Shown here one piece after another: positions 1-18,011 of a stretch of 18,681 nucleotides of DNA. Each line of letters starts with the position of its first letter. The stretch's first letter is position 1. The notes under the pieces are model-generated. The model was given only the letters and a program-made list of their open reading frames with translations. It was not told the origin of the DNA and did not search any database. The stretch is from Terramyces sp. JEL0728 (Eukaryota > Chytridiomycota > Chytridiomycetes > Rhizophydiales > Terramycetaceae): positions 1 to 18,681 of the forward strand of contig JADIIU010000191.1 of assembly GCA_027603945.1 (NCBI GenBank). The letters run 5' to 3'. Both the position numbers and the translations under genes were made by a program.

Positions 1-293
1 AAAAGATTATCATCTTCATAACCAAATGCCTTGTTAGTTGGATGATTATATCCACAATGAGTTTGAGCAAATCGATAGAGAGTCTTTCGAATTCCTTTGA
101 CAGCCTTTGACCCAACAACTTTTCCTCTGAATTCGTAGTATTTCTCTTCTTTCAATACAGTTGCTTTTTTTGTCGCACTTTTGATAATATCTAACCATTC
201 TTTTCGGACTGTCTTCAAGTCTTCTTTGTCTTTCTTCAAGTCTGCTATTTTTTCTATTAACCTTTTTAACAACACTTTCTCAGCAATCCACTT
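1..293 (-). CDS. Unrecognised partial reading frame, truncated by the window edge
   Basis: Reading the minus strand from 293 down to 1 gives one uninterrupted frame of 97 codons that leaves the window still open. It begins just after an in-frame TAG (296..294) and has no ATG near its start, so it is either an internal exon or part of a broken gene. The product is strongly charged and helical at first (Lys/Glu/Asp-rich, for example KKDKEDLKTVRKEWLD), then becomes more compact and aromatic (RFAQTHCGYNHP). A short frame upstream, with an ATG at 340..338, reads about 20 codons and overlaps it one frame out; a 17-nt GTGGAT...AAAG deletion would join the two. I recognise no family. It could be the 3' part of a pseudogene whose earlier parts lie at 337-1022. 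Confidence 0.4.
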
Positions 294-336
294 CTATCAG
301 AGGACAGTTCTTCCCTTAATATTTGCAAGCGGTATC

Positions 337-1022: not shown

Positions 1023-1126
1023 ATCTGCTTCATTACCTCATTCAAAATTCTCAAAATCCATTTGGTTGTGTATTGCAAATCCTTTGCACAAACTCTCTCT
1101 GTTATCATCAATTTGTAATAAAAACA

Positions 1127-1906
1127 TTAGGGTTTTATTAAATTCTCTTTCAACCACTTTATGTTTTCTAAATTCCCATTATATTCTGCATTGGCAAATG
1201 TTTCTTCATCCCAAGGACAATTGTTCTCTTTTAACCATTTCATGTTTTCTAAATTTCCATTATATGCTGCAAATCTAAATGTCAGTCCATCCCAAGAACA
1301 ATTATTCTCCAATAACCACTTCATGTTTTCTAAATTTCCACTGCCTGCTGCCCGTGCAAATGTATATTTATCCCAGGGACAGTTATTCTCTTTCATCCAT
1401 TTCATGTTTTCTAAACTTCCATTGACTGCGGCTTCCCTGAATGAACGATTGTCCCAAGGACAGTTATTCTCCAATAACCATTTCATGTTTTCTAAATTTC
1501 CATTTCTTGCTGCCTTCTCGAATGCACCCTTATTCCAAGGGCAGTTATTCTCCAATAACCATTTCATGTTTTCTGAATTTCCATTTTCAGCTGCCCAGGC
1601 AAATGTATATTCATCCCAGGGACAATTCTTCTCTTTCAACCATTTCATATTTGCTAAATTACCATTTCTTGCTGCTTCATCAAATGTATCTGCACCCCAA
1701 GGTCTATTATTCGCTTTTAGCCATATCAAATTTTCTAAATTTCCATTCAATGCTGCTTCATTAAAAGTAAAATGTTCTGTTGCTCTCTTTACATATCCAC
1801 TTTGCAATTTTCTTGTGTTTTCCAAAGTTGCTTTGTCACATAGTAACCATATTCTATCCCAAATTTCAGTTGGTAAGCTCTTTTTCTCTTGAACTTGATT
1901 GAACAT
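1127..1906 (-). CDS. F-box-like protein with eight short ankyrin-type repeats
   Basis: 259 residues, intronless, ATG at 1906..1904. Residues 10-20 (SLPTEIWDRIW) resemble the start of an F-box, which would recruit Skp1/SCF ubiquitin ligase. From residue 48 to the end run eight tandem repeats of exactly 27 residues, the last cut short, with consensus F-x-x-A-A-x-N-G-N-L-E-N-M-K-W-L, then a K/L-E-N-N-C-P-W-D tail. They are shorter than the canonical 33-residue ankyrin repeat. Repeats of this flavour are known from amoebae, their giant viruses and some early-diverging fungi, usually as lineage-specific expansions. The likely role is substrate recognition, but the target is unknown. AATAAA (1139..1134) lies inside the last codons. 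The F-box assignment is weaker than the repeat assignment. Confidence 0.8.
   Translation of the reverse strand: MFNQVQEKKSLPTEIWDRIWLLCDKATLENTRKLQSGYVKRATEHFTFNEAALNGNLENLIWLKANNRPWGADTFDEAARNGNLANMKWLKEKNCPWDEYTFAWAAENGNSENMKWLLENNCPWNKGAFEKAARNGNLENMKWLLENNCPWDNRSFREAAVNGSLENMKWMKENNCPWDKYTFARAAGSGNLENMKWLLENNCSWDGLTFRFAAYNGNLENMKWLKENNCPWDEETFANAEYNGNLENIKWLKENLIKP
1130..1765 (-). repeat. 81-bp tandem repeat array encoding the 27-residue units
   Basis: Eight head-to-tail 81-bp units, visible on the plus strand as recurring tttcatgttttctaaatttc preceded by an ...aaggacagttattctc-like segment. The units agree well at the DNA level in their central part and vary in the codons before and after NCPWD, as expected of an array that changes copy number by unequal exchange. 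Confidence 0.8.
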
Positions 1907-2269
1907 TTAGATCAAAATTTCGACAAATGATAGTTGCTGAATTGCTTCTTCCCAGATTAAAAATATTCTTTCGAGTATCGCTCTTGTCTGTATCTGTTAT
2001 TAAACATCTGCTAATATATGTTTTACTGTAATTATCCATCAAAGTTTATATAACTTTATTATACTTTTATTTTAGTATTTGTTTATTAATATCATACAAA
2101 ATTTTATGTTGAATTCAGATTGCCAGACAAAGAGATTGAATGGCCATGTTTACTGCGATAACTCCAAAGACCATGTCTCTATCCTGAACAGCGACATTTT
2201 ATTTGAATTGATTTCTAAACAGTGCCAATAAACTGACCTCATATTTTCAAATCTGAATTTTACTTTTCA
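1907..2269. other. Divergent intergenic region with one possible small gene
   Basis: This 363-bp AT-rich stretch separates the minus-strand repeat protein (start 1906) from the plus-strand hydrolase (start 2270) and must hold both promoters. The part 2030-2100 is almost pure A+T. The only gene-like element I can support is the short frame 2106-2231, listed separately. A hydrophobic 35-codon ATG frame beginning near 1926 lacks other support. Confidence 0.5.
2106..2231 (+). CDS. Possible 41-residue protein
   Basis: A short ATG frame (41 codons plus TAA) ending 38 nt before the alpha/beta hydrolase. The product has three Cys (positions 5, 17 and 40) and a leucine/isoleucine-rich C-terminal helix (SILNSDILFELISKQCQ). 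The main support is that its stop codon lies inside AATAAA (2227-2232), the same arrangement seen at confidently identified genes here. It could instead be a relic exon or an upstream ORF controlling the hydrolase. No family recognised. Confidence 0.28.
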   Translation: MLNSDCQTKRLNGHVYCDNSKDHVSILNSDILFELISKQCQ

Positions 2270-3227
2270 ATGAAACTCTGCACAAAAATACTGATAGGTG
2301 TAACCGCATACATAGCAGTTCATCATATCCGAGCATATTTCCATCGTCAACCCAAAAAGACAATTCTCATCAATGGCAAGTTGGTCAATTACGAAATTGA
2401 ACAGCAAGGCGATCCAATTGTAATACTAGTCGCAGGTGCAAACATGTCCGGCACTTACATGCTTCCATTACAAAGGAAATTATCGAAACATGGAATTAGT
2501 ACCTTGATTTACGATCGATTGGGAACTGGAAAGTCTGAGAAACCAACTGAAATGAATTTCAAGGTTTTTGCTCAGCATATACACGAATTTGTAAAATTTG
2601 TGGATAACAAGGCGATCGTGCTAGTTTGTCATTCTTTCGGAGGTGTTGCAGGTACGCATTCTTTAATTAGCGCAATTTTATACCCAGCTGTACAGCATTG
2701 ACCCAAGGATAAAGTCAATCATTCTGGTCGAACCTACTCCGGCGGATTATATTGTAAGATTGCCAAATATTCAAGAGAAATTTGACGTAATGATGCAGCC
2801 AAGATTGATTACAATCGGTTCTATCCTCGGAGACTTGGGGATTTTGCGGTTCATGTCAGATGTATTTTATCAGCCGTTTTACTTTACTACTGTATTCAAC
2901 TTTTACGAGTCTGCCAGGTTTTACAGTGATTTTGTTGATGGATTCAACATTCGCAAGCTCTCTGTTGAATTCAATAGTGTGCGCGTTATGTTTGCTGAAG
3001 GTGCGGAATTGCTTGGGAAATGGAAGCCTGTGCCGGTCAAAATAGCTATGGTAGTGGGCAGCGGGGAAAATCCAGTTTGTTCAAAGGAAAAAGTGACGGC
3101 TTTCTGGGAAAAAACAAGCACCAGAATCAACAGTGAAATATTGACTGATCCAACAAAGTCACATTTTTCAATTCTCTACAGTGATTTGTTGGTTGACGTT
3201 GTTTTGCGCAATTGTCAAGCAAAATAA
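2270..3227 (+). CDS. Membrane-anchored alpha/beta hydrolase
   Basis: Two exons (2270-2651 and 2671-3227) give 312 residues. The first 25 residues form a likely N-terminal membrane anchor (KILIGVTAYIAVHHI), followed by the alpha/beta-hydrolase core: strand plus oxyanion region VILVAGANMSG, the YDRLGTGKS turn, the nucleophile elbow VCHSFGGVA with Ser122 (Cys replaces the usual first Gly), and a late SHFSIL segment supplying the probable catalytic His. Without splicing the frame is lost just after the elbow; removing a 19-nt intron restores VAAQFYTQLYS and runs on to the TAA. The stop (3225-3227) lies inside AATAAA (3223-3228). The substrate is unknown; lipase, esterase or acyltransferase-type roles are all possible. 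The convergent neighbour's stop is only 17 nt away. Confidence 0.8.
2652..2670 (+). other. 19-nt spliceosomal intron
   Basis: GTACGCATTCTTTAATTAG. Removal restores the hydrolase frame after Val-Ala of the nucleophile elbow. TTAAT lies directly before the acceptor. Confidence 0.85.
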
Positions 3228-3244
3228 AGTCTATCGTATTTATT

Positions 3245-4424
3245 TTACACTCCGACTCTATACAGGTACAGCAGCATAAACGAGCAAGTAACCCACACCA
3301 TCGAATCACTAGTCCCTTTCAAAATTGCAGCGGCGAGTGTATTCTGCAAGAAATACTCTGATTCAAAACCAACAAATATCAGGACGTGGTTACTAAGCAC
3401 ATTCACATACAAGAGCCAAATTACAGTATTAATTGCCATTCTAAAGTTGTTGATCTTTCTGTCTTTGGAAGATACCTTGGTTTTTATAGTCGCTATTTTT
3501 TTGAAATTTCCAACAGAATGGCTTTGGGTAATCTGAGATCTTTTCAAGTTGCTTGGCGTTTTAGAATCTCTTGACGCACCGTTTTCAATCAAGTCGTTTT
3601 TAGATTTGCTTGCTGTATTATTTACTTTGGATTTTCGGTTTTCAGAGTGTACATGTGTCTGACTGGTAGCTTCTGACGGCTCTCTTGAGGACTTTGCTTC
3701 GCCCAGTATACGCAAAACATTGTTTCCAAAGAATAAGATTACTGGCAAGGCGATAAATAGGATAGCCATCATATTCAAGCCATAGACTGCTCGACGATAC
3801 TTTGCATAGGCTTCCGGCCCTCCAGTTGCACCAATAGTGCCCCAACTTACTGTAAAAGAAATACTTAGAATCAAAGTAACAAGTCGCCACAACTTTAGTA
3901 TCTTTTCAGGCGAAATAACGCGTTCTCCAACCTTGATGTCAGAGTAGATATTTAGACCTGTAGCTGCTCCGGCTACTCCAACCTATCGTAAGGACATTTC
4001 ATACCATAAAGACACTGGATGCGAGGGCTCCCATGGTGTAATAAAAGAAATCCAACAGCACATTGATTTGGAGGTATTGCTGCACAGCAAAGTCTGACAT
4101 TTGATTTTTGTCTCTATAAGCAACCGAACGAATGTTTGCCAACTCTGCAATTCGTAACGTGTTTGACAAGACGCACAGGACACACAAATCGTCCGCTGAA
4201 TTCCACCTTTTCTTGTTTTCATTAACCGATCTGGCGATAAAATTCCTGATAATAATCCCTAAATAGGCGATAATTGATCCTATCGCCATAATTATCATTA
4301 CCAAATCAATGGTTGCGAAAATTAGAGTCCTTTGCGGGTCACAGCCAAGATAATTCGCACGATAGTCGCATATATCCAATAAATAAGACGAGCTCATAGG
4401 TATAGTTGCATTCGTGCCTGTCAT
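3245..4424 (-). CDS. Seven-helix membrane protein, receptor-like
   Basis: Two exons (4424..4005 and 3982..3245) encode 385 residues from the ATG at 4424. Hydrophobic segments in order: about residues 34-60 (IDLVMIIMAIGSIIAYLGII), a weaker one around the Cys-rich CVLCVLSN, one spanning the exon junction (YYTMGALASSVFMVGVAGAA), then LVTLILSISFTVSWG, MMAILFIALPVILFFG, TVIWLLYVNVLSNHVLIFVG and VWVTCSFMLLYLY. A Ser/Lys-rich hydrophilic loop of about 80 residues lies between the fifth and sixth, where G-protein-coupled receptors carry their third cytoplasmic loop. N-glycosylation sequons near the N-terminus fit an extracellular start. The topology suggests a GPCR-like sensor, but I see no family signature. 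AATAAA follows the stop directly (3244..3239). Confidence 0.7.
3983..4004 (-). other. 22-nt spliceosomal intron
   Basis: Starts GTATGAAATG and ends CTTACGATAG. It lies between codons (after Met of SSVFM); the next exon continues VGVAGAA in frame. CTTAC is the probable branch site. Confidence 0.75.
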
Positions 4425-4446
4425 TTAGCCAGAAAAAACGCAAACT

Positions 4447-4642
4447 TCATCGTCCAATGTTTGACGTCATCAATTGCGATTCATTATTCAAATCAGATTT
4501 AAGGGAGTCGACGACAACCCTGATATTTTTTGCAAGGAGAATGTGGTTTGAGATGATTTGGCGTTTCTTTACGAATGCCGTGGGTGATTGTTGAAGCCTT
4601 TCTTGTGCAAACGTTTTACTGCCTGGCAAATGTCAATTCCAT
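4447..4642 (-). CDS. Possible small spliced gene, about 57 residues
   Basis: Candidate only. ATG at 4642..4640, exon 1 of 23 nt (MELTFARQ, then stop if unspliced), a 22-nt GTAAAA...AAG intron at 4619..4598, and exon 2 4597..4447. The product would be a basic, helical protein (KKRQIISNHILLAKNIR, VVVDSLKSDLNNE) of a size typical of small complex subunits. It would leave 101 bp to the divergent gene at 4744 and 22 bp to the seven-helix gene downstream, both in keeping with local packing. Against it, no AATAAA is found at its stop, unlike all confident genes here, and no family is recognised. Confidence 0.25.
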
Positions 4643-4743
4643 GTTATTTGTGTTGAGCACTTGCTTTCATTTTGGATGGTAAACTCTAATGTATCCAATC
4701 AACTGTACTCAATTGCGTAATATTTCCTAGATATTTTTTTGCA

Positions 4744-6249
4744 ATGGAATTTCAAGATCTGGACTTGAAGATAGTCTTGGCCAAAAATGAATTGGAAACG
4801 CTAAAGTCCAGGCTAAAAGAACTACAAGCGCAAGCAATCCAAACTGAACAAGATATACAATCAAAGAGAGCAGAAATTTCGAGTTTGCGGAAAGTGAAAA
4901 GACGACAAATGGAATCTTTAGCGAATATTAAACGAAAAAACATTGACGGCCATGAGTCAAAAGAGTCTCTGTTCATAAAATTAAAAGAATTTCGAATGGG
5001 AATGAAAAAAGTAAAGATGAACAGTTTTGGAATAGAGTTGGAGTATGGCCCAGAGATAATATGGAGAAACAACAAAGAAGTTTGTAATATACCAGCAGAA
5101 AGAACTGACAGCCAATCAAATGACAGGCATATACAAGCTAGTTGTACAATCAACGACAGTGAAAATGCCAAGAATCCCGAGGACCAGCAATCGGCAAATG
5201 GAAGCAAGCTATGTTTGAAAAGCTACAAAAACAATATCCTCAATTATGAGCTGGAAGAACCAAGCGACAATGACTGGAAGAGCAAAGAGAATATGAGCAT
5301 TGTAAATGGCTATAGTGAACGGAATTTTAGTGGTGCTGAATCAGATTTAGAAGAGTTTATTCAATTGGATGAGCTTCAGGATAGAGTGGATTTTGATGCA
5401 AAAGCTAGTGATAGCAATCTATTTTTTATCGACACAGATAGAGGCGAATGTATTAAAGAAAATGGAAATGTACAAATTGATTTTCACTCAAGCCCTGCAC
5501 ACGACGCTGAATCAGATGATTGGGAATTGAAACTGCAGAAATACCAATGTGATGGAATAAACATTGTTTCTGATGATGTTGAAATACATTCGTCCGATTC
5601 AAGTCGTGTGGATTCGCCTGAAAATATAGCGACACCAGAAAACAATTCTGCAACGTTAAAAGAGACAATACTAGAAAAATTACAAGGATATAAGAGTCCA
5701 AAGAGACAAATGCTTTTAAAACACAAACTGGCTGATAATGATTTCCTGGAACCTGGACTTGCATCGCATTCCCAACAAGAACCTCCGGAAAGTCTTTCTA
5801 CAGATGCGGCTTTATCCGATAAGGAAAATCTGTTAAAGAAACTGCTAATGAAAAAGAAACTAGAAAAGAATACCGTTCCTGAACCAGAAATATGTTTTCG
5901 GAGCCTTATATCCAAAATACCTACTTTTACCAACAATAATTTAAACTACTGTACTATATGCGGACAGTATTCGTTAATTAGTTCCTATCAGATAGCTGCG
6001 CATAGGAAATTATCAATTCCAACCTGCAAACTGTGTTCAACCATTATCAATTCGCGACCAATTATCTCTGTTATACCGGGATTCAACACCTATCAGAAAA
6101 AACGTATAGTGTCCCTGTTGCTAGACCCGTTGAATGGCTTCTTGCTTGATGAATGTGTGGTAAACTATTACGGAGAAGGATCCAGCGCAGAGCGGAAAGC
6201 ACAATTTAATCAAGAAATCCTTCCCGAGTGGAAACGATATTTAAATTAA
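4744..6249 (+). CDS. Unrecognised coiled-coil protein with C-terminal zinc-knuckle-like motif
   Basis: 501 residues, no intron. Residues 1-70 are a heptad-rich coiled coil (LDLKIVLAKNELETLKSRLK), the middle (about 110-330) is acidic, Ser/Asp/Asn-rich and probably disordered, then comes a Lys/Leu-rich helical stretch (KENLLKKLLMKKKLEKN). The C-terminal 100 residues are compact: Cys403-x2-Cys406, His420, Cys428-x2-Cys431, consistent with one zinc site, followed by a conserved-looking tail (VNYYGEGSSAERK). The layout suggests a nuclear scaffold or regulatory-complex subunit, which is only an inference. The TAA stop (6247-6249) overlaps AATAAA (6248-6253), and the next gene starts 40 bp downstream on the same strand. 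Confidence 0.75.
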   Translation: MEFQDLDLKIVLAKNELETLKSRLKELQAQAIQTEQDIQSKRAEISSLRKVKRRQMESLANIKRKNIDGHESKESLFIKLKEFRMGMKKVKMNSFGIELEYGPEIIWRNNKEVCNIPAERTDSQSNDRHIQASCTINDSENAKNPEDQQSANGSKLCLKSYKNNILNYELEEPSDNDWKSKENMSIVNGYSERNFSGAESDLEEFIQLDELQDRVDFDAKASDSNLFFIDTDRGECIKENGNVQIDFHSSPAHDAESDDWELKLQKYQCDGINIVSDDVEIHSSDSSRVDSPENIATPENNSATLKETILEKLQGYKSPKRQMLLKHKLADNDFLEPGLASHSQQEPPESLSTDAALSDKENLLKKLLMKKKLEKNTVPEPEICFRSLISKIPTFTNNNLNYCTICGQYSLISSYQIAAHRKLSIPTCKLCSTIINSRPIISVIPGFNTYQKKRIVSLLLDPLNGFLLDECVVNYYGEGSSAERKAQFNQEILPEWKRYLN

Positions 6250-6289
6250 TAAACACACGCTCATTAATTTCAACCGTCAGTTTTCTCAC

Positions 6290-7052
6290 ATGATTTTTCA
6301 AACCAGAGAAGGTGCAGAGTTGAACTACGAATTCCAGAAAAAGAGCCAGCCAGCAATAGTAATTGTTCCGGGGATCTTGCAAAGCGCTCAGGATTATAGA
6401 TTTTTCCAGCAATTGCCCAACTCATTGCTGCTGGTTGATCCTAGAGGACAAGGAAAATCAACTTACACTCAGCCAATACCACCATTAAGAGTGCCGATGG
6501 ACTTGACTCTGCTACAACTAGCAACCGATGTATTTGATATTATTTTGGAATGTGGATTAAAAGAATTTATTTTGGTTGGATTTGATTTATCAGGAATTGC
6601 TTGTCTACAGCTGAGTCTGTTGCTAAGAGGCAGGGATGATGTGGTGTTGAAAGGAATGGCACTGGTTAATACTACGCCAATGACACCGTCAAGAGGAATG
6701 CTGCGAGTGTCAATGGAAAGCCCGCAACAGTACATTACAAACAGCAGAGGAAAAGGAAATCCTACAGAGCTGGACCACTTTGTATTAAGGGAGCAATTAA
6801 ACTGCATCAATGGAATCAACCTCACCGACCAATTGCACCTGATTAAAACCCCAACGCTGGTTGTCCATGGTGCCGATAATAAGATGATTGATGTTTCGTA
6901 TGGGCTAATGATAGCAGAGAATATATTTGGTTCGGATATCGCCGTTTCCCAAGGTGTAGGGCATTGGTAATTTTCGCTAATTTAGGTATCACCAAGACGA
7001 TTCAAATGGATTAATTGCGCTTGTAAAATCATTTGTGAATAAACAGCAGTGA
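6290..7052 (+). CDS. Alpha/beta hydrolase with Asp at the nucleophile position
   Basis: Two exons (6290-6966, 6986-7052), 247 residues. The fold is clear: VIVPGILQSAQDY (oxyanion region), LLLVDPRGQGKS, the elbow ILVGFDLSG, TLVVHGADNKM (acid residue) and QGVGHW (catalytic His225). At the elbow, where most family members have Ser, this protein has Asp99 in the pattern small-x-Asp-x-small, as in epoxide hydrolases and haloalkane dehalogenases. It may use a covalent Asp intermediate, or be inactive. It lacks an obvious signal peptide or anchor, so is probably cytosolic. The single intron splits the Trp226 codon. AATAAA (7038-7043) is within the last codons. The convergent oxidoreductase ends 30 bp away. 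Confidence 0.8.
6967..6985 (+). other. 19-nt spliceosomal intron
   Basis: GTAATTTTCGCTAATTTAG. Splits the Trp codon after the catalytic GH; removal extends the protein by 22 residues to a TGA at 7050-7052. CTAAT is the branch-like motif. Confidence 0.85.
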
Positions 7053-7082
7053 TTGATTTTGAAAGGGATTTTTTATTAGAAC

Positions 7083-8501
7083 TCATAGATTGCTTACAGC
7101 ATCTCTAACTGCATTCCGGACGACTTCTGCCAGAGCTGGATGAATGTAAATGGTGTCTTTTAGAATTTCCAAATTCGCTTTACATCTCATGTACGCAATC
7201 AGGATGTGGATTAATGTCGAGGCTTCCTTTCCAACAATGTGAGCACCAACAAGTTCATTGTCATCGCCGGCAAAAACCAGTTTAACCATACCGTGATCTA
7301 CCTGCAGTGCAGCACCCATTGCACAGTCAGGATAATCTGCAGTTCCAATCAGCACTTTTCCATATTTTGCCTCTGCTTCATCTTGCGTCAATCCTACTGT
7401 TCCTATTTGTGGATTTGAAAAAACTGCAGCAGGGATAGGCGGGTAAGCCATTCCAACCTTTTGAAGAAAAGTATCCTTGAATACACTCTTGAATACCCAC
7501 TCACCTTGGTAATTTGCGGTATGTCTAAACATTGGATGCCCAGTTATATCACCAAAAGCCCATACATTGGGAATATTTGTCCTGAATGAAGAGTCCACTT
7601 TGATGGAGCCATCTTGCTTGAGTTCGTATCCGTGCTGAGCCAGATTCAACTGGTCGGTAACTGGAACAACCCCAACGGCTGATAGCAAATGGGTAGTAAC
7701 AAACTCTCTAACTTGACCGTCCTTTAATTGTATTTTAGTGTGGAATTTGTTATCGCGATACGAAACCGACACTGGCTTGACTTTTAAGTGAACAGGAAAT
7801 CGTTTTGAAAATTCCGTTTGGAATGCATTACGGATGTCTTTATCTACAGCGGATAGCATTTGACTTCGAACTGCAAATTCAACTTTGGTGCCAGTCTATA
7901 TGAAATTAGCATTACCATTCCAAAGTAGTATCCAAGCTCAACTGCAATGTATCCTCCGCCAAGCACCAGCATCGACTCTGGCTGTTCTTCCAAGCGAAGT
8001 GCTTCTGCATAAGTTAGATACGGAGTTCCCTCCATACCAGGAATATCTGCTTTGTTTGCTCTACATCCGGCAGTAATGAAACTTGTGAATCAACAATTAC
8101 ATTTTATCCGCAGACACCTTAATTCCATTTACTTCAACTGTGTGCGTAGCAATAAACTTGCACTCTCCTCTATACACAGTCAAGTTTGGTATTTTCGCGT
8201 ACATTGGTCCAATAGAATTCGAATCCTTGTCGATAGATTCACAAACACGTCGTACTAGCCTTTGTTTATCAATAGTTGGCTTGGATACAGTAATGTTAAA
8301 CCTGTTTGCTTCTTCAATTTCAGCCATCACGTCTGCTGGGTGGATGAGCATTTTAGATGGAATACATCCTCTGTTTAAACAAGTTCCACCAAAAGGTCCT
8401 TTTTCTATTAACGCTACGTTGTAACCTAGCGAAGCTGCTGGTCTTGTAATTTTAGATCCAGATCCAGACCCAATGATTAGAACATCAAAATGAGTAGCCA
8501 T
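7083..8501 (-). CDS. FAD/NAD(P) disulfide oxidoreductase, dihydrolipoyl dehydrogenase/mycothione reductase-like
   Basis: Three exons (8501..8101, 8081..7916, 7895..7083) give 459 residues, a full-length class I pyridine nucleotide-disulfide oxidoreductase. Visible: FAD motif GSGSGS (11-16), redox pair Cys41/Cys46 in [16 protein letters not shown] motif [12 protein letters not shown], second FAD motif VWAFGDITG, and a C-terminal dimerisation domain with the His-Glu pair in HPALAE. Such enzymes pass electrons from NAD(P)H through FAD to a disulfide. The [10 protein letters not shown] and HPALAEVV signatures recall bacterial Lpd-like and mycothione-reductase-like branches more than the mitochondrial E3 enzyme, so the substrate is uncertain. 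The only in-frame ATG before the FAD motif is at 8501, and no convincing mitochondrial presequence can be added. AATAAA lies 5 nt past the stop. Confidence 0.85.
7896..7915 (-). other. 20-nt spliceosomal intron
   Basis: GTAATGCTAATTTCATATAG. Joins the NAD-binding segment (GYYFGM) to [12 protein letters not shown], as expected in the family. Confidence 0.85.
8082..8100 (-). other. 19-nt spliceosomal intron
   Basis: GTAATTGTTGATTCACAAG. Removal changes ADKM-stop into [12 protein letters not shown], the expected strand following the FAD domain. TTCAC replaces the usual CTAAY. Confidence 0.85.
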
Positions 8502-8829
8502 CAGAGATTTTTCGCGAATAGACACATTTATGCAGAATTTGGAAATTCGCCGTTTCCATTTGGACAGCTGCTGTGCAGAAACCTCCTTCACAACAGAATT
8601 TGCAAGGGCCGTGCATCTGGCATCCACTGGTTGGAACAAATACCTCAGGTTTGATTTCAATGTGAGTAGGTGTTGCTGGTAGGATACCGTGGGGCTCGAG
8701 AAGAATTAAACATGACATAAGACTCAGGTTGAAACTTTTACTTTGATGGCCACATGCTGATTTCTCCACTGTTTCGTAACTTGACACAACGCCTCTGACA
8801 TTTAAGCACACCAAACTTGACAAGCATTT
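8502..8829. other. Divergent promoter region; no confident gene
   Basis: 328 bp between the start codons of the oxidoreductase (minus) and the leucine-rich-repeat protein (+). The minus strand carries a 75-codon ATG frame (8712..8485) with a Cys-rich centre (GPCKFCCEGGFC) that overlaps the first codons of the oxidoreductase in another frame. It has no AATAAA near its stop, so I treat it as unproven. No clear TATA box was found. Confidence 0.4.
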
Positions 8830-9723
8830 ATGCTCAAAGAAAGTGATTTGATTGAAGCGCAAAACAAAACCATTTGGTGGACGTATAGAAACCTAGATCA
8901 ACAGGACGCAATCGAACTAGCATCGGCCCTGAAAACAAACAAATCGCTCAAAATATTGAATTTGAATGGAAATCGCATTGGCGATGCCGGTGTAGAAGCA
9001 ATTATTGATTCGCTAAACGAAAACAAGACGATCAAGCAGTTGAATTTCGGCAGCAACGGCTTGACAGACAAGAGTATCGTAAAAATATCTGAATTTCTAT
9101 CTACAAACACATCAGTGATTTCAATATGTTTGTTTCAAAACGAAATTGGTAATGAAGGTGCATTAGCCCTAGCTAACATGCTTACAAAAAACAAAACAGT
9201 GGTTTCGCTGTACTTGTACTTGAACAAAATCCAAACCCATGGGATGTTGATGTTGGCAAAGAGTATCAGCACTCATCCAGCACTGCAAACAGTTTGGTTG
9301 GACCATAACCCAATAACAGAGACCTGTATGGCCTGTGTGGTGCAACTACTAAAACGAAACAAAACACTAACTGCCCTAGAAATCACATATGATGATAACG
9401 GCACTAGTACCTTCTACACTGCAACTACTAATTTCCAGACTGTTATTCAAGACTACGTAAAAGAGAATATGGAGTTGCAAAGTTTAAAGAGCGAGTCGGT
9501 TAGAAGCGTTTATTTGCTCAGCCGGATCCTGATTGCAATTGAGATTCCGATGCCTGTAGAGTTGAAGATTCACATGGTGTCTTTGTTTTGTAAGGGGTTT
9601 GACCAAAAGGATGTTTTGGTGTTGTACAATGTGTTGTTGGATAGAGAGTCAATCGGTAAATTTGACTTGGAAAATGTGTTTAACGGGGACGAGTTTATCC
9701 GCCAATGTAAATTAATTCAATAA
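8830..9723 (+). CDS. Leucine-rich-repeat protein, ribonuclease-inhibitor type
   Basis: 297 residues, intronless. After a short N-terminal segment come about five tandem repeats of roughly 28 residues with the RI-type pattern L-x-x-L-x-L-x-x-N-x-I/L-x-x-x-G, for example SLKILNLNGNRIGDAG, TIKQLNFGSNGLTD, VVSLYLYLNKIQTHG and ALQTVWLDHNPITE. The last 110 residues are a helical, non-repeat tail. Such domains form curved protein-binding surfaces. No kinase, NACHT or GAP domain is attached, so this is a stand-alone adaptor of unknown partner, probably intracellular since there is no signal peptide. The TAA stop lies within AATAAA (9719-9724), and the convergent receptor gene ends 38 bp downstream. 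Confidence 0.8.
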   Translation: MLKESDLIEAQNKTIWWTYRNLDQQDAIELASALKTNKSLKILNLNGNRIGDAGVEAIIDSLNENKTIKQLNFGSNGLTDKSIVKISEFLSTNTSVISICLFQNEIGNEGALALANMLTKNKTVVSLYLYLNKIQTHGMLMLAKSISTHPALQTVWLDHNPITETCMACVVQLLKRNKTLTALEITYDDNGTSTFYTATTNFQTVIQDYVKENMELQSLKSESVRSVYLLSRILIAIEIPMPVELKIHMVSLFCKGFDQKDVLVLYNVLLDRESIGKFDLENVFNGDEFIRQCKLIQ

Positions 9724-9761
9724 AACCATGGTATTTAAATTCACAGGTAGTGGTGACAAGT

Positions 9762-10968
9762 TTATTGGGGTAGTTGCAAGAAATTTGTCTCTATAGGATC
9801 GCCAAATTCATCGTCACTATCTGAATCAGAAGGACTCAAATATTTAGATTGAATTCGGGATGGTTTTGATGATAATCTAAGAATGCGGTGAATGTTAGGT
9901 GGTGGTGATATTTCATTAGAGGGTATAATATTCTCTTCAATCTGTATGCTTTGTATGATATCTTTGTCCATGATCTCGACCTTTTCTTTTGGTTTGTATC
10001 CAATTCCATAGAATTGTTCAATGTCGTTATAAACCGACCTTTTGGGGTTTGCTTGCTTTGGCTTTGGCTTTGGCTGCAGTTTGGATTTGGATTTCACAGA
10101 GTCTAGTTGAGTTGTCATAAAGTCTATTGGTATTTGAACTCGCTCTCCTTTTCTTCGTAATCCAAAGTGAATTGCCAGTGCGTGGAATATTCCTATCGAA
10201 GGGATTAGTATCTGCTGTAAAGTATACAGTATCTGGAATGACCAGTGGTTTAAATTAATGCTTGGTAAGATGGTGTGTGAAAATACAACAGCAAGTCCAT
10301 ACATTACATATGGCGTCCACACAACCACAGTTACCGCCATAAATAATAGTATAAAGTGATACATGATATTGCTCGCCTGGTGCACTGATTCTTCTCCTTC
10401 TTTGAAAAAGTTGTTTGAAACCATTTTTTGCCTCTTTTCCTTCTGCTGCTTCAATTCCAACAAAATCAAAATACTACACACCGCCATCAAGATTAATGCA
10501 TGGGCCAGCAATACATTAACTATATCAAGTATGTTGATATTGGTATTTTCACAATCAAAGTATTCGAAATAAATAAATAGTGAACTGGTGATGATTGCAG
10601 GAATCACACAGATGATTGAAACTGTCGGGTAAGATATTTTGGAGTTCGAGCCGCCGTAATTCACAATGTAGTGCGCAATAAACGCAATGGCGAATACATA
10701 GTAAAATGAGACTGTCTGAAAAAAGAAAAACATTTGTCTAAAGACTATGCTGAACTTCCAGTCTGGTGCTGCTACGTCCACAATCAAATCTCCAATTTTA
10801 GATACACTCAGCAGCAATTCTATAATCGCCAAAATATTAATCAAATAAAAGAATCCGTTCCTGGGTAACTTTTTCTACATTAGCGATAGTTACCAATATA
10901 ATCCACAAAGACCCGCTAATTCCTATGAACGAACATAGTGATAGTATCAGCATTGCAGTGAATTTCAT
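9762..10968 (-). CDS. Seven-transmembrane G-protein-coupled-receptor-like protein
   Basis: Two exons (10968..10894, 10874..9762), 395 residues. Seven hydrophobic helices can be laid out: TM1 in exon 1 (MLILSLCSFIGISGSLWIIL), TM2 (FFYLINILAIIELLLS), TM3 (FFFFQTVSFYYVFAIAFIAH), TM4 (IICVIPAIITSSLFIYF), TM5 (NVLLAHALILMAVCSILILL), TM6 (ILLFMAVTVVVWTPYVMYG, with a WTPY bend) and TM7 (LQQILIPSIGIFHALAIHFG). A basic loop separates TM5 and TM6, and a long Pro/Lys/Ser-rich cytoplasmic tail ends the protein, with phosphorylatable Ser/Asp clusters. This is the layout of a GPCR, perhaps of the cAMP-receptor-like type, but the ligand and class are not determinable. An in-frame stop a few codons upstream supports the ATG at 10968. 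The stop codon lies inside AATAAA (9766..9761). Confidence 0.8.
10875..10893 (-). other. 19-nt spliceosomal intron
   Basis: GTAACTATCGCTAATGTAG. Falls exactly between codons at the cytoplasmic end of TM1; adds the missing first helix and an ATG to the receptor. Confidence 0.8.
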
Positions 10969-11319
10969 TAAATTTAGAAAGAAAATTTACTGGTTTCAAA
11001 AGGTCCTGAATTAATGCCCCGAGTTGAAAACAAATTTCCTCGATTTGTGCCAATCTGGACGATTGAGAAGGAAATGAAAAGGCAATTGCGGCGAAATGGG
11101 CAAAGGGAAGATGTTTCCTCATATTCTCTTTGGTGCTTCTTTTTTTGTTTCTTTGATTTTCCAATTGTTGGTGTTTCAAGGGACAACCTACGCCCACTTT
11201 GGAAATGTTTCAGCTACACATTGTACTCGCAACCTCACTGTGCAGTTTGTACGAAAGTCAGCAATCCTGCGATTCAATAGAGTAGTATTTTTATTTTAAA
11301 CAAACTATATTCCAGTATT
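10969..11319. other. Unresolved stretch with competing short frames
   Basis: No confident gene. On the plus strand a frame with an ATG at 11111 begins like a secreted protein (MFPHILFGASFFVSLIFQLL, then two N-glycosylation sequons and one Cys) but stops at 11299 without AATAAA. On the minus strand a frame (11197..10916) includes a helical segment (LAQIEEICFQLGALIQDLLK) but overlaps the start of the receptor gene. Either could be an exon of a gene with very short introns; I could not assemble a consistent model for either strand. Confidence 0.3.
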
Positions 11320-11615
11320 TCAAGTTGAATCTGGTAATCCTTGCGGGAATTGGTGCAAATGAAGAACGTGATCAAATTTTAGCGTGTTTTTCCATATGGG
11401 TGAGTGGGCTTTTCTTACACAGGAATCCAACAGCAATTACATTTCTGAAATCCCAAAGTATCGGCCGATATTTCTATAAAGACTGCGAATTTGAACACTG
11501 CCATCTGGTTATTTGACTGATGCGGATCGACCGCGCTTTGATCCAGTGATGTGTTTCCTTCATGTGCCAACTACCATTCAAATATCTGGGGAATGGTTGC
11601 CGAAACGACTTGCAT
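11320..11615 (-). CDS. Possible small four-exon gene
   Basis: Candidate only. ATG at 11615..11613; exons 11615..11575, 11557..11532, 11504..11441 and 11413..11320, with putative introns of 17, 27 and 27 nt, give 74 residues ending TGA. The central part reads DGSVQIRSLYRNIGRYFG and the end KFDHVLHLHQFPQGLPDST. In favour: one frame is continuous across the second intron except for a TAA within an AATAACCAG-like branch/acceptor, and a minus-strand AATAAA occurs at 11295..11290. Against: the intron lengths fall outside the 18-22 nt cluster, and the plus strand carries an equally long open frame here. No family recognised. Confidence 0.25.
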
Positions 11616-11682
11616 CAGCGATAAATATATGTTTATGAGAGTGAGGATAAAGCAAAGTGATTAGTTTATTCCTGTTATCCAA

Positions 11683-12098
11683 TTACAGTTTCTTTAGGAC
11701 AGATGTAACTTCCAACAACTCTCGTTCAATTACAGACTGGATATTCTGCAAATCACCGAATTCTTTAATTTTATCATTCAAATCTTGCTTTAATTTCAAA
11801 TATTTTCTCGTATTCTCCTTGTATTCCTGAAGCTGATCAAACAGCGCCATTGATTCCTTTTCAATCTGTTTCTCTAGATCAAACAAGATTTTAATTCTGG
11901 TTAACGAAAAGATACTCTTTTGTGTGCTGTTGATTCAAGTCCTTTGTAAATTTCAATGTGTTCTTTTCTAGATTCTTTTGGAGGTAGTCTGCTTAGTTTC
12001 GCATTACCTTTGCGTTAAAGATTATCAACCTAGTTTAGCTGGTTCGTACCTAATTTTTGCTGTTCTTTTTCTTGGTGCTTTTGCTGAAAGAGATTCAT
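11683..12098 (-). CDS. Small coiled-coil protein
   Basis: Three exons (12098..12050, 11988..11916, 11896..11683) give 111 residues that are almost wholly helical and Lys/Glu/Gln/Leu-rich with heptad spacing (QQKHQEKEQQKLDYLQKNLE, EKQIEKESMALFDQLQEYKE). No signal peptide or other domain. The size and all-helical make-up suggest a subunit of a multi-protein assembly, but I do not recognise which. The gene model needs removal of a 19-nt intron and of a 61-nt intron made of three intron-like units. The two downstream exons fit together in frame with no alternative. AATAAA lies 12 nt after the stop (11670..11665). It diverges from PRMT1 with 223 bp between the start codons. Confidence 0.6.
11897..11915 (-). 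other. 19-nt spliceosomal intron
   Basis: GTATCTTTTCGTTAACCAG. Joins QQHTKE to IKILFDLEKQ in one coiled-coil frame. TTAAC lies two bases before the acceptor CAG. Confidence 0.7.
11989..12049 (-). other. 61-nt intron composed of three consecutive intron-like units
   Basis: The segment splits without remainder into unit 1 at 12049..12030 (GTACGAACCAGCTAAACTAG, 20 nt), unit 2 at 12029..12008 (GTTGATAATC through TTTAACGCAAAG, 22 nt) and unit 3 at 12007..11989 (GTAATGCGAAACTAAGCAG, 19 nt). Each begins GT, ends AG and has CTAA or TTAAC before the AG. Retaining unit 1 or unit 2 brings in stops and retaining unit 3 shifts the frame, so all 61 nt must go for the reading frame to continue (QQKL to DYLQKN). 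Confidence 0.6.
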
Positions 12099-12228
12099 TG
12101 CAGGAAAATAAAATGCGATAGAAAGCTTAGCACGTTAATCTTTCGCAGACGGCAGTGACAGCTCAGCTACCAGTAGAAATGAGGTTATAGAGTCAGTTCA
12201 ACCGCGCTGCAAACAAAAGAGGTATTGA

Positions 12229-13324
<1,096 letters not shown>

Positions 13325-13447
13325 ATAAAATACTTTTTAGAATTTTAATACAAGTATTTCCATCAGCTACAAAAGTTAATTTTGAGGTTCTCCATATTCC
13401 TTTACAGCGTGCCCAATAAGATATAGTGATAGTTTTTATTCTGAAAA

Positions 13448-14278
13448 TTACAAATGCAAGGCAAGGAGAATCGAATAAAAGTAAGGTGTCTGGGCAGCAC
13501 CATTTGGCTGAACCGCTGGGAAAACTCCCATTGTTACAGTGCTTGATGTCAAACCTAGATTAATTCCAATTTTACTGGCAGAAGTTGATGTTTGCTCAGA
13601 AGTGTCACTCGCAGGAATCGCTACGTTAATGATATTCGTACCACTAGCATAGGAAGGATGTCCAAAAAAATCATACCAAGGAGGGTTATAGATTGGTTGG
13701 GCTGGCACCGCACTTTCAATTGGTGGTAGTGTGCCATTGAAAAACAAAGTGATTGGATTAGAACTGTGTAAGTTGGCATTGGAGGTCTTACTGCTTGCCA
13801 CCAAAGTTGTTGGGATGAAGACGGTGTCAAATATTCCAGTTTTGCTTCCATCAACGCAGCTACTATCAGCGATATAAGTAGCATTCATTACAACATTTTG
13901 GCATACCGTATCATTGTACATTGATGCTGTCACGTTAACTTTGCCGATTTGCATTAGCATGGATCGACTTGGAAACAAAAGACACTTGTTTGCCAGAATG
14001 CAGCTGAATTGGCTCATCGCGTCTGAGCAATTGGCAGTTTGGTATTTTACAAAGCAGACTACTTGGCCATTCGGTGGAAAAAGGCTTTTCAAAGCGTTGG
14101 CCGAAATGATACTGCTAAAATTTGTTTGTCCAACTCGACCAAGGCAATTTTCAATATCGCATTGGCGATTAGCAATTTCTACGGCAATTATATCCCCACT
14201 GCAATTATCTCCAGCGTAATTCTTCAAGACGCACCAACCGAGTGCGAAGTTGAGCAGACATAGAATTGCAGGATTCAT
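13448..14278 (-). CDS. Secreted Cys-rich, probably GPI-anchored surface protein
   Basis: 276 residues, intronless. An N-terminal signal peptide (ILCLLNFALGWCV) leads into a Cys-rich ectodomain of about 130 residues with at least ten Cys, suggesting several disulfides, and N-glycosylation sequons (NFSS, NCSD, NVTA, NATY). The second half is Ser/Thr/Pro/Ala-rich with few Cys, and the last residues are hydrophobic (FYSILLALHL), the layout of a GPI-anchored wall or plasma-membrane protein. I recognise no family. It shares only this general architecture with the deacetylases downstream. AATAAA lies 7 nt past the stop (13440..13435). It is convergent with PRMT1, 123 bp between stops. Confidence 0.7.
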   Translation of the reverse strand: MNPAILCLLNFALGWCVLKNYAGDNCSGDIIAVEIANRQCDIENCLGRVGQTNFSSIISANALKSLFPPNGQVVCFVKYQTANCSDAMSQFSCILANKCLLFPSRSMLMQIGKVNVTASMYNDTVCQNVVMNATYIADSSCVDGSKTGIFDTVFIPTTLVASSKTSNANLHSSNPITLFFNGTLPPIESAVPAQPIYNPPWYDFFGHPSYASGTNIINVAIPASDTSEQTSTSASKIGINLGLTSSTVTMGVFPAVQPNGAAQTPYFYSILLALHL

Positions 14279-14357
14279 TATGGTTTGGTAAAAACGCGAC
14301 TGGATTTTCTGGTTGGGTAATGTCTAAAACAATTCATCGCATATCTGCTTTATTTAA

Positions 14358-15005
14358 TCATTTATTCTTGTGGTAGTAGAATACGACATCCCTGTCGATC
14401 GTTGCCCAGTTCCCGTCAAGGAGTACCTGGCTATTGCTGTTGGAATATTTCACTCCGCCATTCATAAGTGTTGGGCAGATGGTAATAATGAGTGAATCAT
14501 ACAAGTCATGCTTCAAAAACTCTTCAATTACAGTCGCACCTCCTTCTACCATGAGCTTCTTTATTCCAAGTCTGTAAAGCTCATCTAAAGCAACTTTTAA
14601 ATCCAGTTTCCCATCAATAATAGGAACATGTACTATCCTGACGTGCTCTAGATTGGCTTTCCTCTCCAGTTTCTCCTTGTCGTAAACATCACTGGTGATA
14701 ATAATTGGAGAACGGTCTTGAAATAAGTTTGGGAATTTCAGCTTTGAATCCAGGATAATTGGAGTTGCATTTCTAGGATTATCAACATATCGAGTTGTAA
14801 GCGAGGGGTTGTCTACCAAGACGGTATTTATACCAACCATAATGCCGTCTGATTCGTTTCTGATTGTATGTGTGAAACGCATTGATTCTGGACATGAGAG
14901 AATTATCTGGGTATTTGGTTTTGAGATGTATCCGTCAATGGACTGCGCAAAGGTTAAAGTTACTTGCGTCCTGCCTTCTATCGAGTTTCTTTGTAAAATT
15001 TCCAT
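14358..15005 (-). CDS. RIB7: 2,5-diamino-6-ribosylamino-pyrimidinone 5'-phosphate reductase
   Basis: 215 residues, intronless, one RibD C-terminal-type reductase domain, close in size to yeast Rib7. It performs the NADPH-dependent reduction of the ribosyl side chain in the second step of fungal riboflavin synthesis, in the cytosol. Signatures: TLTFAQSIDGYIS (first strand and substrate loop), SDGIMVGINTVLVDNPSLTT, PIILDSKLKFP, and the nucleotide-binding MVEGGATVIEEF, then SLIITICPTLMNGG. The conserved core starts only about 13 residues from the ATG at 15005 and the next Met is inside the domain, so this start is forced. It is 5 bp from the start codon of divergent cyclophilin H. AATAAA copies flank the stop (14366..14361 and 14354..14349). 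Confidence 0.92.
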   Translation of the reverse strand: MEILQRNSIEGRTQVTLTFAQSIDGYISKPNTQIILSCPESMRFTHTIRNESDGIMVGINTVLVDNPSLTTRYVDNPRNATPIILDSKLKFPNLFQDRSPIIITSDVYDKEKLERKANLEHVRIVHVPIIDGKLDLKVALDELYRLGIKKLMVEGGATVIEEFLKHDLYDSLIITICPTLMNGGVKYSNSNSQVLLDGNWATIDRDVVFYYHKNK

Positions 15006-15010
15006 AAAAA

Positions 15011-15547
15011 ATGGCAGATCTTCCAATAGTATTTTTTGATATTACAATTGGCGGACAACCGGCAGGGCGAATCAAGATGGAGTTATTCAGCAATATAGTT
15101 CCAAAGACAGCAGAAAACTTTCGCCAGCTATGTACAGGAGAATATAGAGTAAAAGGACTGCCTCAGGGATATAAAGGATGCCATTTCCACAGAGTGATCA
15201 AGGATTTCATGATTCAAGGTATTTACTACTAACAAGGCGGTGATTACCTTAATAATGATGGGACTGGATCCAAATCTATTTATGGAGAAAGCTTTGAAGA
15301 CGAAAATTTTGATTTAAAACATTCCAGTGCTGGCTTATTATCTATGGCCAACACTGGCCCTAATACCAACGGATGCCAATTTTTTATCACTTGCCAAAAG
15401 AGTGAATTCTTGGATGGCAAGCATGTTGTATTTGGAAGAGTAGTAGATGGACTGTTGACATTACGCAAAATCGAAAATGTACCCACTGTGGGTGCAAATA
15501 ATCAACCAAAAATGCCAATTATCATTTCAGAATGTGGGGAAATGTGA
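15011..15547 (+). CDS. PPIH: Cyclophilin H-type peptidyl-prolyl isomerase
   Basis: Two exons (15011-15218, 15237-15547) encode 172 residues, one cyclophilin domain. It matches the cyclophilin H (USA-CYP) group best: [20 protein letters not shown] at the start, [14 protein letters not shown], the FENFD-type loop, [33 protein letters not shown] and the C-terminal SECGEM. Cyclophilin H isomerises X-Pro bonds and is a component of the U4/U6 and tri-snRNP in the nucleus, via Prp3/Prp4. The Trp that usually precedes LDGKHVVFG and contacts cyclosporin is Phe here. The frame has an in-frame TAA that disappears with an 18-nt intron. AATAAA (15565-15570) lies inside the convergent deacetylase gene. Confidence 0.92.
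15219..15236 (+). other. 18-nt spliceosomal intron in cyclophilin H
   Basis: GTATTTACTACTAACAAG. Length is a multiple of three, with an in-frame TAA; removal restores the invariant MIQGGD. CTAAC, the canonical branch core, sits three bases before the end. Confidence 0.9.
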
Positions 15548-15554
15548 GCATTTA

Positions 15555-16586
15555 TTATAACAACAATAAAAGGATCAGGTACGATATATCCAGTTTTTGC
15601 GCGCTTGACTGGGTTCTTTCCTTGTTCACTGTGCTTTGAGTGCGAACGGTTACTGGAGATGAAAAGTAATTGTTGACAGAGTTTGATGGTGGCCCTGTTG
15701 GGATTGGAGTAGCTGTCGGCATTCCATTAAAAGTTACTTTGGGAATATTGGTGGATGGCTGAGTGGGAGATGGGCCGGTAGATATCTTTGGCTGGGTACT
15801 CTGTGCAGGAGGATTACCTTGGATATTGCGGTATGGTTTTTCACCGGTGCATTCACTGATAGTTCTTTCTGTGTATGGACTCTTGGACAATTTATCCATT
15901 CCGTAGTATGCCAATTCAGCAGTTTCCGCATGCAAATCGTGCTCCAAAGATATGGTGCCTATTACTGGTTGTTTCATGAACGCATCGAACTGCGGTTTCA
16001 ATGATCTTCCATTAGTAGTTGCGTCGCCAGTATCTCTATTCCACCTAATCATTACAAAGCCCAACGCTTGTGCAATGCCACGTAACCTGGTATCTGTAGT
16101 CCCATAAGGAGCCCTAAAGTACCGACATTCAACTCCAATGACATCTTTGATTATGTGATACGTGTACATAATCTCTGCGATTATTTGTTCGTTAGACAAG
16201 CTCGTCATGACGGGATGCGACCAAGTATGGATACCAATTTCCATCCCAGCTTTGTAAGCTTGAACCAGCAATTCCGGGTATTTCTTTACTTGTGCTCCAA
16301 CCACAAAGAAAGTGCCTCTAAAGTTGTGTTTGGTGAGCTGCGAAACAACCTCAGGAGTGTGTTGAGATGGCCCATCGTCAAAAGTCAGTGCCCAATCTGT
16401 CTTTGCGACACAAGTAGATTTTTCCCAATCCACACCAGGCCCAGTCTTTATGTTTGCAGCGGCTTGGTACTGGCTATTGAAGGTCGGATTACCAGACACT
16501 GGTGTACCAACTTCATTCGCTGGGTAGTTCATCGAGAACTTGAATTGGCACAACACTAGAGAAATTAATAAGGCAAGTCTAATCAT
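15555..16586 (-). CDS. Chitin deacetylase-like polysaccharide deacetylase, copy 1
   Basis: 343 residues, intronless: signal peptide (LALLISLVLCQFKFS), carbohydrate esterase family 4 (NodB) domain at about 60-235, a Pro/Thr/Ser-rich stalk, and a hydrophobic tail (LDISYLILLLLL) typical of GPI anchoring. CE4 enzymes remove acetyl groups from chitin, giving chitosan in walls or spore coats. Catalytic motifs: TFDDGP (68-73; Asp70 general base, Asp71 metal), HTWSHP with His120/His124 as metal ligands, RAPYG (158-162), RDTGDA and LEHDLH (214-219). The stop overlaps AATAAA (15556..15551), and cyclophilin H ends 7 bp away. First of three tandem paralogues on this strand. Confidence 0.92.
   Translation of the reverse strand: MIRLALLISLVLCQFKFSMNYPANEVGTPVSGNPTFNSQYQAAANIKTGPGVDWEKSTCVAKTDWALTFDDGPSQHTPEVVSQLTKHNFRGTFFVVGAQVKKYPELLVQAYKAGMEIGIHTWSHPVMTSLSNEQIIAEIMYTYHIIKDVIGVECRYFRAPYGTTDTRLRGIAQALGFVMIRWNRDTGDATTNGRSLKPQFDAFMKQPVIGTISLEHDLHAETAELAYYGMDKLSKSPYTERTISECTGEKPYRNIQGNPPAQSTQPKISTGPSPTQPSTNIPKVTFNGMPTATPIPTGPPSNSVNNYFSSPVTVRTQSTVNKERTQSSAQKLDISYLILLLLL
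15838..16141 (-). repeat. 304-bp tract identical in deacetylase copies 1 and 2 (copy 1)
   Basis: Identical base for base, by eye, to 17232-17535 (constant offset 1394). It encodes about 100 residues including RAPYG, RDTGDA and LEHDLH. Flanking parts of the two genes are clearly diverged. Confidence 0.9.
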
Positions 16587-16942
16587 TCTATGGTCTATTA
16601 AATATATCGTTGCTATTTAAATGACTGCGTACACTGCCATTGTAACATTGCCGCACAACTTAACCAAAATTTCCTTTTGCAATCGCCAAAGGTGCCATGT
16701 GGTTCTTCAAGGGTTTTTCAAATCCAGCCGTTTCAGGTTTCTAGCTGGGACTGATAGGGAACTGCTTAAAATTAACGGGCTAATATTCGACATGGCAGCG
16801 AAACTCACTCGCCTGTTACTGGATCCATACACTTGTGAATAACACCTGATATAAGTAACTCTGCGCTAGCCATCCATATTGGGAATTGCTGTGCAAGCCC
16901 AAGTGTCTTATTTTGTGCGCTCTTTAGAATTGAAACTTTTGT
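16587..16942. other. Promoter of deacetylase 1 and 3' flank of deacetylase 2
   Basis: 356 bp without a convincing gene. A 73-codon ATG frame on the plus strand (16621-16842) runs antisense through the promoter, has no AATAAA at its end and no recognisable domain. The minus strand carries a TATA-like element close to the deacetylase start. Confidence 0.5.
16614..16622 (-). promoter_or_regulatory. TATA-like element of deacetylase 1
   Basis: ATTTAAATA on the minus strand, 28-36 nt before the ATG at 16586. Its position resembles that of the clearer TATA box of copy 2, suggesting a very short leader. Confidence 0.4.
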
Positions 16943-17980: not shown

Positions 17981-18011
17981 TCTATTTGGTGATTTCTTCT
18001 ATTGTGTTTTG

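Follow-up and report, generated by a model that had tools for sequence, protein, structure and literature searches.

Probable U2-type introns of about 20 nucleotides and tandem arrays of intron-like units in nuclear DNA of the chytrid Terramyces sp. JEL0728

Genes and introns of the window

The window analyzed here, i.e., the whole stretch of 18,681 nucleotides (nt) at positions 1–18,681 of one contig, belongs to the 15.0-Mb genome assembly (231 contigs) of Terramyces sp. JEL0728, which is placed in Chytridiomycota, Rhizophydiales and Terramycetaceae by NCBI taxonomy, and represents fungal nuclear genome. Its genes are interrupted by nine very short putative introns with lengths of 18, 19 (six times), 20 and 22 nt (Table 1), all of which were found again where a preliminary description of this DNA had placed them. 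This description had distributed the introns over seven genes, while the present gene models give eight. As it had also reported, every one of the nine starts with GTA and ends with AG. Each carries a YTNAY-like branch motif with the branch A located 13–15 nt past the first G; in the 22-nt intron this motif is CTTAC and the A is found 15 nt past the first G and 6 nt ahead of the last.

Removal of these segments yields open frames when the exons are joined, and for six of the nine the junction falls within a matched domain (hydrolase A, both introns of the oxidoreductase, PRMT1, cyclophilin H and BLOS1). The spliced oxidoreductase matches Pyr_redox_2 over residues 5–320 with the profile complete (1–291), and both junctions are inside the match. 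The previous statement that removal restores conserved sequence is thus supported for PRMT1, cyclophilin H, the oxidoreductase with both introns and hydrolase A, while in hydrolase B the Pfam match covers residues 21–139 and the junction lies past that stretch. For the proteins of the two putative membrane-protein genes no Pfam match was obtained. The spliced PRMT1 product is identical (100% over 327 residues) to an annotated Terramyces sp. JEL0728 protein, i.e., its 19-nt intron is already excised in the public annotation, and the junction between THWKQ and TVFY aligns without gap to the PRMT1 structure PDB 8z2z. Moreover, three of nine fetched PRMT1 relatives, each about 80% identical, leave the shared sequence at this junction and end shortly after it (HWKQ-VRIYLT, HWKQ-VLLN and HWKQ-VEQPH). 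Of these tails, the first and the second would fit to the read-through of a similar intron whose branch A lies at 15 and 14 nt, respectively, provided that a stop codon comes next and that the codons are suitably chosen, while the third is ambiguous in this respect.

Table 1. Putative introns, the BLOS1-like gene and its array units, in window coordinates.
Feature	Position	Strand	Remarks
19-nt intron, alpha/beta-hydrolase A gene (CDS 2270-3227)	2652..2670	+	GTACGCATTCTTTAATTAG; junction within the Abhydrolase_1 stretch 49-163
22-nt intron, putative multi-pass membrane protein gene	3983..4004	-	open frame after removal
19-nt intron close to the 3' end, alpha/beta-hydrolase B gene (CDS from 6290)	6967..6985	+	removal gives an end in ...GVGHWYHQDDSNGLIALVKSFVNKQQ followed by the stop
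20-nt intron 2, oxidoreductase gene	7896..7915	-	branch TTCAT, A at 14
19-nt intron 1, oxidoreductase gene	8082..8100	-	branch TTCAC, A at 14
19-nt intron, second putative multi-pass membrane protein gene	10875..10893	-	open frame after removal
BLOS1/GCN5L1-like gene	11683..12098	-	start codon at 12098, stop ends at 11683; 111 aa after removal of 61-nt array and 19-nt intron
19-nt intron, BLOS1-like gene	11897..11915	-	within the PF06320 match
Array unit 3, 19 nt	11989..12007	-	GTAATGCGAAACTAAGCAG; directly follows unit 2
Array unit 2, 22 nt	12008..12029	-	GTTGATAATCTTTAACGCAAAG; directly follows unit 1; begins with GTT, not GTA; low score
Array unit 1, 20 nt	12030..12049	-	GTACGAACCAGCTAAACTAG
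19-nt intron, PRMT1 gene (CDS 12322-13324)	13132..13150	+	junction in PRMT_C
18-nt intron, cyclophilin H gene (CDS 15011-15547)	15219..15236	+	within Pro_isomerase 8-170

Length distribution and intron architecture in the genome

Intron lengths were surveyed in a sample composed of 200 kb of contig starts, the loci obtained from searches and the window, amounting to 228 kb and later to 292 kb. A motif-free gene finder, which knows GT, AG and coding composition as trained on long open reading frames of the same DNA and which has no length preference, called 9, 24, 11 and 5 GT-AG introns at 19, 20, 21 and 22 nt in the 228 kb, i.e., 49 in total, vs. 1–5 for each of nine decoy dinucleotide pairs. 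In the 292 kb with a penalty of 7, it called 58 GT-AG introns of 19–22 nt vs. 3–6 across six decoys, while GT-AG pairs of 31–60 and 61–200 nt did not exceed the decoy range at any of the three penalties. A gene finder trained on the motifs called seven of the nine window introns.

A scan independent of coding sequence, using GTA, YTAAY and YAG on both strands of the 292 kb, resulted in 71, 90, 34 and 14 hits at 19, 20, 21 and 22 nt compared to 9, 8, 6 and 10 in the reversed sequence. No excess at any other length was observed at 12–45 nt singly or in bins to 100 nt, and the counts are flat from 27 to 400 nt (mean of 5.5–5.6 per length in three bins) without excess at 23–400 nt. Among the donor-swap controls, AGT and TAG (86 and 35 counts at 19–22 nt) have a one-base overlap with real donors, and therefore ATG, TGA, GAT and the reversed sequence were used instead, giving 19, 22, 13 and 33 vs. 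209 real hits at 19–22 nt. A control with shuffled interiors (162 vs. 320) is not clean, as true introns stay in place, and neither number is relied on. For the whole genome, a single 20-nt pattern yielded 2,491 matches vs. 111 for the backward pattern; in the sample the same pattern gave 58 vs. 1, i.e., 195 per Mb compared to 158 per Mb in the genome, so that the sample is somewhat richer. By scaling, introns with YTAAY might number about 8,000 genome-wide, and those with all branch motifs might be on the order of ten thousand.

The claim of uniform ultra-short introns is therefore borne out beyond the window, as a GT-AG peak over decoys at 19–22 nt. This does not apply to the statement that they are mostly exactly 19 nt long, which describes a local situation: among 251 motif-defined candidates of the 292 kb (branch A and last G 4–7 nt apart; about 27 expected from background), 106 are of 20 nt, 82 of 19 nt, 41 of 21 nt, 14 of 22 nt, seven of 18 nt and one of 23 nt. 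Finding six of nine window introns at 19 nt has a p value of 0.04 under the sample rate. The genome-wide length histogram that had been proposed as a check thus gives, on the basis of sequence, the expected narrow peak at 19–22 nt and no longer class to 400 nt, with a mode at 20 instead of 19 nt. For the 292-kb sample of the 15-Mb genome and for lengths up to 400 nt, these data point to one narrow class of lengths, all below about 25 nt, without a longer class.

The candidates are characterized by two short spacings. In the 292 kb, the distance from the first G to the branch A is 13, 14 and 15 nt in 117, 67 and 21 candidates, respectively, and it drops at 12 nt to 4 candidates, which corresponds to background, so that 13 nt forms a sharp wall. 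Between the branch A and the G that ends the first AG, the distance is 5 nt in 122 and 6 nt in 96 of 284 candidates, which were required to have a donor at 13–15 nt and an AG no more than 14 nt away. Some 18- and 21-nt combinations are rare, but with p = 0.03 for the independence of the two spacings this signal is too weak to infer that multiples of three are selected against or that total length is selected for. In 53 introns of 18–23 nt from the motif-free finder, the donor consensus by majority or plurality is GTAATT, with T (51%) prevailing over G (17%) at donor position +5; the weak G at +5 would lower the pairing with a standard U1. The stretch between donor and branch site is T-rich. 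The enrichment of GT-AG over decoy dinucleotides and a branch site complementary to U2, together with a U2 RNA gene carrying the GTAGTA box, are as expected for U2-type introns.

Splicing machinery, rival explanations and mechanism

Taken together, the segments of the window are very probably true U2-type spliceosomal introns of the Terramyces sp. JEL0728 nuclear genome that have shrunk to 19–22 nt. The factors searched were U1C, U1-70K, SF1, the large subunit of U2AF, Slu7, Prp18 and the U1, U2 and U6 RNAs. Slu7, Prp18 and SF1 are encoded, with profile matches over the cut-off. The Slu7 product, with its three introns (20, 20 and 21 nt) excised, is 100% identical over 477 residues to an annotated Terramyces protein and has a full profile match (289 bits over 1–253). 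SF1 shows both its helix-hairpin and KH domains (SF1-HH: 115 bits over 1–114), and the match of the U2AF large subunit increases from 252 bits unspliced to 334 bits, over the cut-off of 310, after removal of four introns of 19–20 nt. This profile also gave sub-cut-off matches in two prokaryote controls, which were read as being due to RNA-binding repeats. A loss of U2AF or SF1 components, which the preliminary description had suggested to look for as an alteration, was accordingly not seen. The U1C gene (locus L048, contig C76, minus strand) contains an exon of 10 nt that is preceded by an intron of 21 nt and followed by one of 22 nt, and its splicing restores MPKYYCDYCD and improves the match to zf-U1 (52 bits over 7–38 before, 69 bits over 1–38 after removal). 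The U2 RNA gene scores 140 bits. Of the U1 and U2 components, for which a search for altered forms had likewise been suggested, U2 RNA and U1C are present, while a U1 RNA gene and the N-terminal U1-70K profile were not found. As a separate observation, the U1 zinc-finger profile unexpectedly gave an over-cut-off match also in the Escherichia coli control genome.

Several observations weigh against the interpretation as spliceosomal introns. The intron calls are derived from DNA and protein sequence, not from transcripts, and three of the nine (hydrolase B and the two membrane-protein genes) are backed by the open frame alone. The motif-free finder recovers two to three of the nine window introns, depending on the penalty, so that its histogram comes from a minority of introns, and the two spacings show some mutual dependence (chi-square p = 0.03). 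Prp18 exceeds the cut-off only in two pieces, with no complete spliced form. Furthermore, in the genome no U1 RNA gene was found by Rfam or by a 5'-end pattern, no U6 RNA gene by Rfam or by a core pattern, and no match to the N-terminal U1-70K profile, for which there was no positive-control genome. The non-detection of U1, U6 and U1-70K is not evidence of loss. For U1, the 5'-end query ATACTTACCTG had four genome matches vs. twelve for the backward control, none of which, L038 included, resembled a U1 gene; L039 represents an intron donor read in antisense, L041 is part of a phospholipase C gene and L040 looks coding. For U6, the core with up to three mismatches gave six poor matches vs. three for the control, and the two Rfam matches L021 (contig C199) and L022 (contig C111) fall below the family cut-off and seem to be almost identical copies of one coding-like sequence. 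The U6 gene could be interrupted, or it could be absent from the assembly.

Regarding other origins of the segments, frame-breaking assembly or sequencing errors might come to mind, as the data stem from one draft assembly in 231 contigs; however, GTA, YTAAY and AG recur at fixed spacing thousands of times genome-wide, the decoy dinucleotides are without a comparable peak, and errors are hence an extremely improbable source. Similarly negligible is the probability that the segments are kept in the mRNA and skipped during translation as bypassing elements. The present evidence is at the level of sequence, with which this idea would also be compatible, but a consensus for donor, branch site and acceptor with the branch A at fixed distance suits splicing, and the genome encodes splicing factors. 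The idea that intron lengths span a normal range of which the scans caught only the short part draws on the facts that lengths up to 400 nt were covered, those of 101–400 nt as binned means, and that the motif-free finder is insensitive. It is nevertheless very unlikely, given that GT-AG pairs of 31–60 and 61–200 nt do not rise above decoys in a finder without length preference and that the motif scan has no excess at 23–400 nt.

Under the interpretation as spliceosomal introns, every intron would be recognized as one unit by intron definition. The 5' splice site (nt 1–6) would be bound by U1 and then by U6, and the branch site (about nt 9–15) by SF1 and then by U2. Donor hexamer and branch heptamer would be positioned nearly end to end, being two bases apart at the 13-nt spacing, and this arrangement would fix the lower limit at 13 nt. 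As 3' splice site, the first AG, 5–6 nt beyond the branch A, would be used. A pyrimidine tract would then have no space downstream, and U2AF65 could find one solely in the T-rich segment that separates donor and branch site. A deletion bias might press the lengths against the lower wall, and the upper limit is probably due to this bias together with poor splicing of longer introns. The earlier proposal of a physical minimum at which recognition sites touch is in part compatible with these data: the sharp wall at 13 nt fits to a nearly end-to-end arrangement, but it is not a universal physical minimum, as Stentor and Mikrocytos have shorter introns. Because Stentor manages a branch A at position 10, the wall would be a trait of the machinery of this lineage and not a universal limit. 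Another spliceosome is thus able to splice at shorter spacing (PMC9505925), which lends some weight to a non-steric origin of the wall, i.e., to a residue of strong deletion bias meeting a lineage-specific requirement of the branch site or donor. The step is very sharp (4 candidates at 12 nt vs. 117 at 13 nt), which speaks against such an origin; it is a serious possibility, although we do not favor it.

Tandem arrays and comparison with known systems

In the BLOS1-like gene, a 61-nt array (minus strand, 12049-11989), which was absent from the preliminary description, consists of three intron-like units of 20, 22 and 19 nt with zero exon between them. Each unit has a donor, a branch A at 13–14 nt and an AG. 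Of the eight combinations of keeping or removing the units, only that with all three units out gives the 111-residue protein, while the others stop after 17–48 residues; the product matches PF06320 with 45.7 bits (residues 6–110 on profile positions 6–110 of 114). The spliced product was found exactly among public Terramyces proteins for two of the three searched (PRMT1 and Slu7) but not for BLOS1, for which a search among candidates of 0.55–1.75 times the query length resulted in no Terramyces match and in two matches, both from Boothiomyces (Terramycetaceae). Boothiomyces protein P0242 holds exon 1 and P0241 the second exon, and neither joins both, which may suggest that gene callers fail at the spot of the array.

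A second array of 40 nt (20 + 20) is located in the Integrator subunit 4 gene (locus L002, minus strand, index 7575). Among four options tried, removal of the whole array is required, and the alignment with Integrator subunit 4 is gap-free over the junction. Two more adjacent pairs (L012 and L014) are ambiguous, being also open with one unit removed. A tandem scan at a threshold of 5 found five adjacent unit pairs vs. 20 over 50 other offsets combined, where two of the five belong to the window array that prompted the scan; thresholds of 6 and 7 gave no adjacent pairs, so that the enrichment rests on weak-scoring units. Chance adjacency, raised by exons ending in AG, is estimated to account for about one pair.

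Recursive splicing at ratchet points and the stwintrons of fungi typically involve far longer segments. The arrays resemble these cases in that they hold an AG/GT junction inside a stretch removable in steps: such a junction with a zero-length exon, in a stretch that must be removed as a whole, is present in both the window and the L002 array. They differ in that each Terramyces step would be about 20 nt. The arrays may be either ordinary introns of 40 and 61 nt with internal sites arisen by chance, or they may be removed stepwise. In a more far-reaching version, which is conceivable but rather doubtful, the spliceosome would be limited to segments of about 19–22 nt, and longer introns would be composed of back-to-back units with their own donor, branch site and acceptor that are successively removed at zero-length exons, making the BLOS1 and Integrator arrays micro-ratchets. 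What is new here are back-to-back intron units without an exon between them, hinting at stepwise splicing.

In the cited literature, uniform ultra-short introns are placed in relic endosymbiont nuclei, in heterotrich ciliates and in a reduced parasite (PMC4035089, PMC9505925, PMC10245619). The chlorarachniophyte nucleomorphs of Bigelowiella and Lotharella have numerous GT-AG introns of mostly 18–23 nt, with 951 introns in the relic nucleus of 0.37 Mb and 1,011 in that of about 0.61 Mb (PMC4035089). The Terramyces introns are likewise GT-AG, numerous and narrow in length range. Unlike these relic endosymbiont nuclei, Terramyces has thousands of them in a 15-Mb fungal genome. For Stentor coeruleus, introns of 15–16 nt are described whose branch A occupies position 10 or 11 and whose branch consensus is weak; U2AF and SF1 are listed as present, and Slu7 and Prp18 as not found (PMC9505925). 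Terramyces shares with Stentor one or two lengths and a fixed branch position, the distance from branch A to the end being 5 nt in Stentor (PMC9505925). It differs in the branch A at positions 14–16, in the clear YTAAY and in that Slu7 and Prp18 were both found; that these two factors are missing, as reported for Stentor, is a trait of Stentor and does not define the group. Mikrocytos mackini, a parasite, has 224 introns of 16–17 nt and 17–19 identified splicing proteins (PMC10245619). Its introns are uniform and ultra-short as in Terramyces, but of 16–17 nt, 224 in number and in a reduced parasite. In passages of PMC13391722 and PMC7466969 nothing on the present subject is contained. By title and beginning of abstract, no report on ultra-short introns in chytrids, Rhizophydiales or Terramyces was found in the open-licence literature, and a report elsewhere is possible.

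A chytrid with thousands of tiny introns, in which the searched factors are mostly present, suggests that the small-intron state is separable from spliceosome loss, because Slu7 and Prp18 are present despite a distance from branch to 3' splice site as short as in Stentor. The Terramyces chytrid is presumably free-living. Through the two spacings, the limit of closeness of U1/U6 and SF1/U2 becomes accessible to direct tests in a fungus, and one-step splicing of longer introns could be probed with the tandem arrays. Terramyces might offer a favorable system for asking down to which size introns can still be spliced.

Apart from the introns, the window contains three similar genes in a row at 15555-18681 (minus strand) with long near-identical stretches, which we take to resemble secreted polysaccharide deacetylases and whose near-identity looks like the pattern left by recent duplication or conversion. 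Moreover, at 1127-1906 on the minus strand there is an open frame of 259 residues built of NLENMKWLxENNCPWD-like repeat units.

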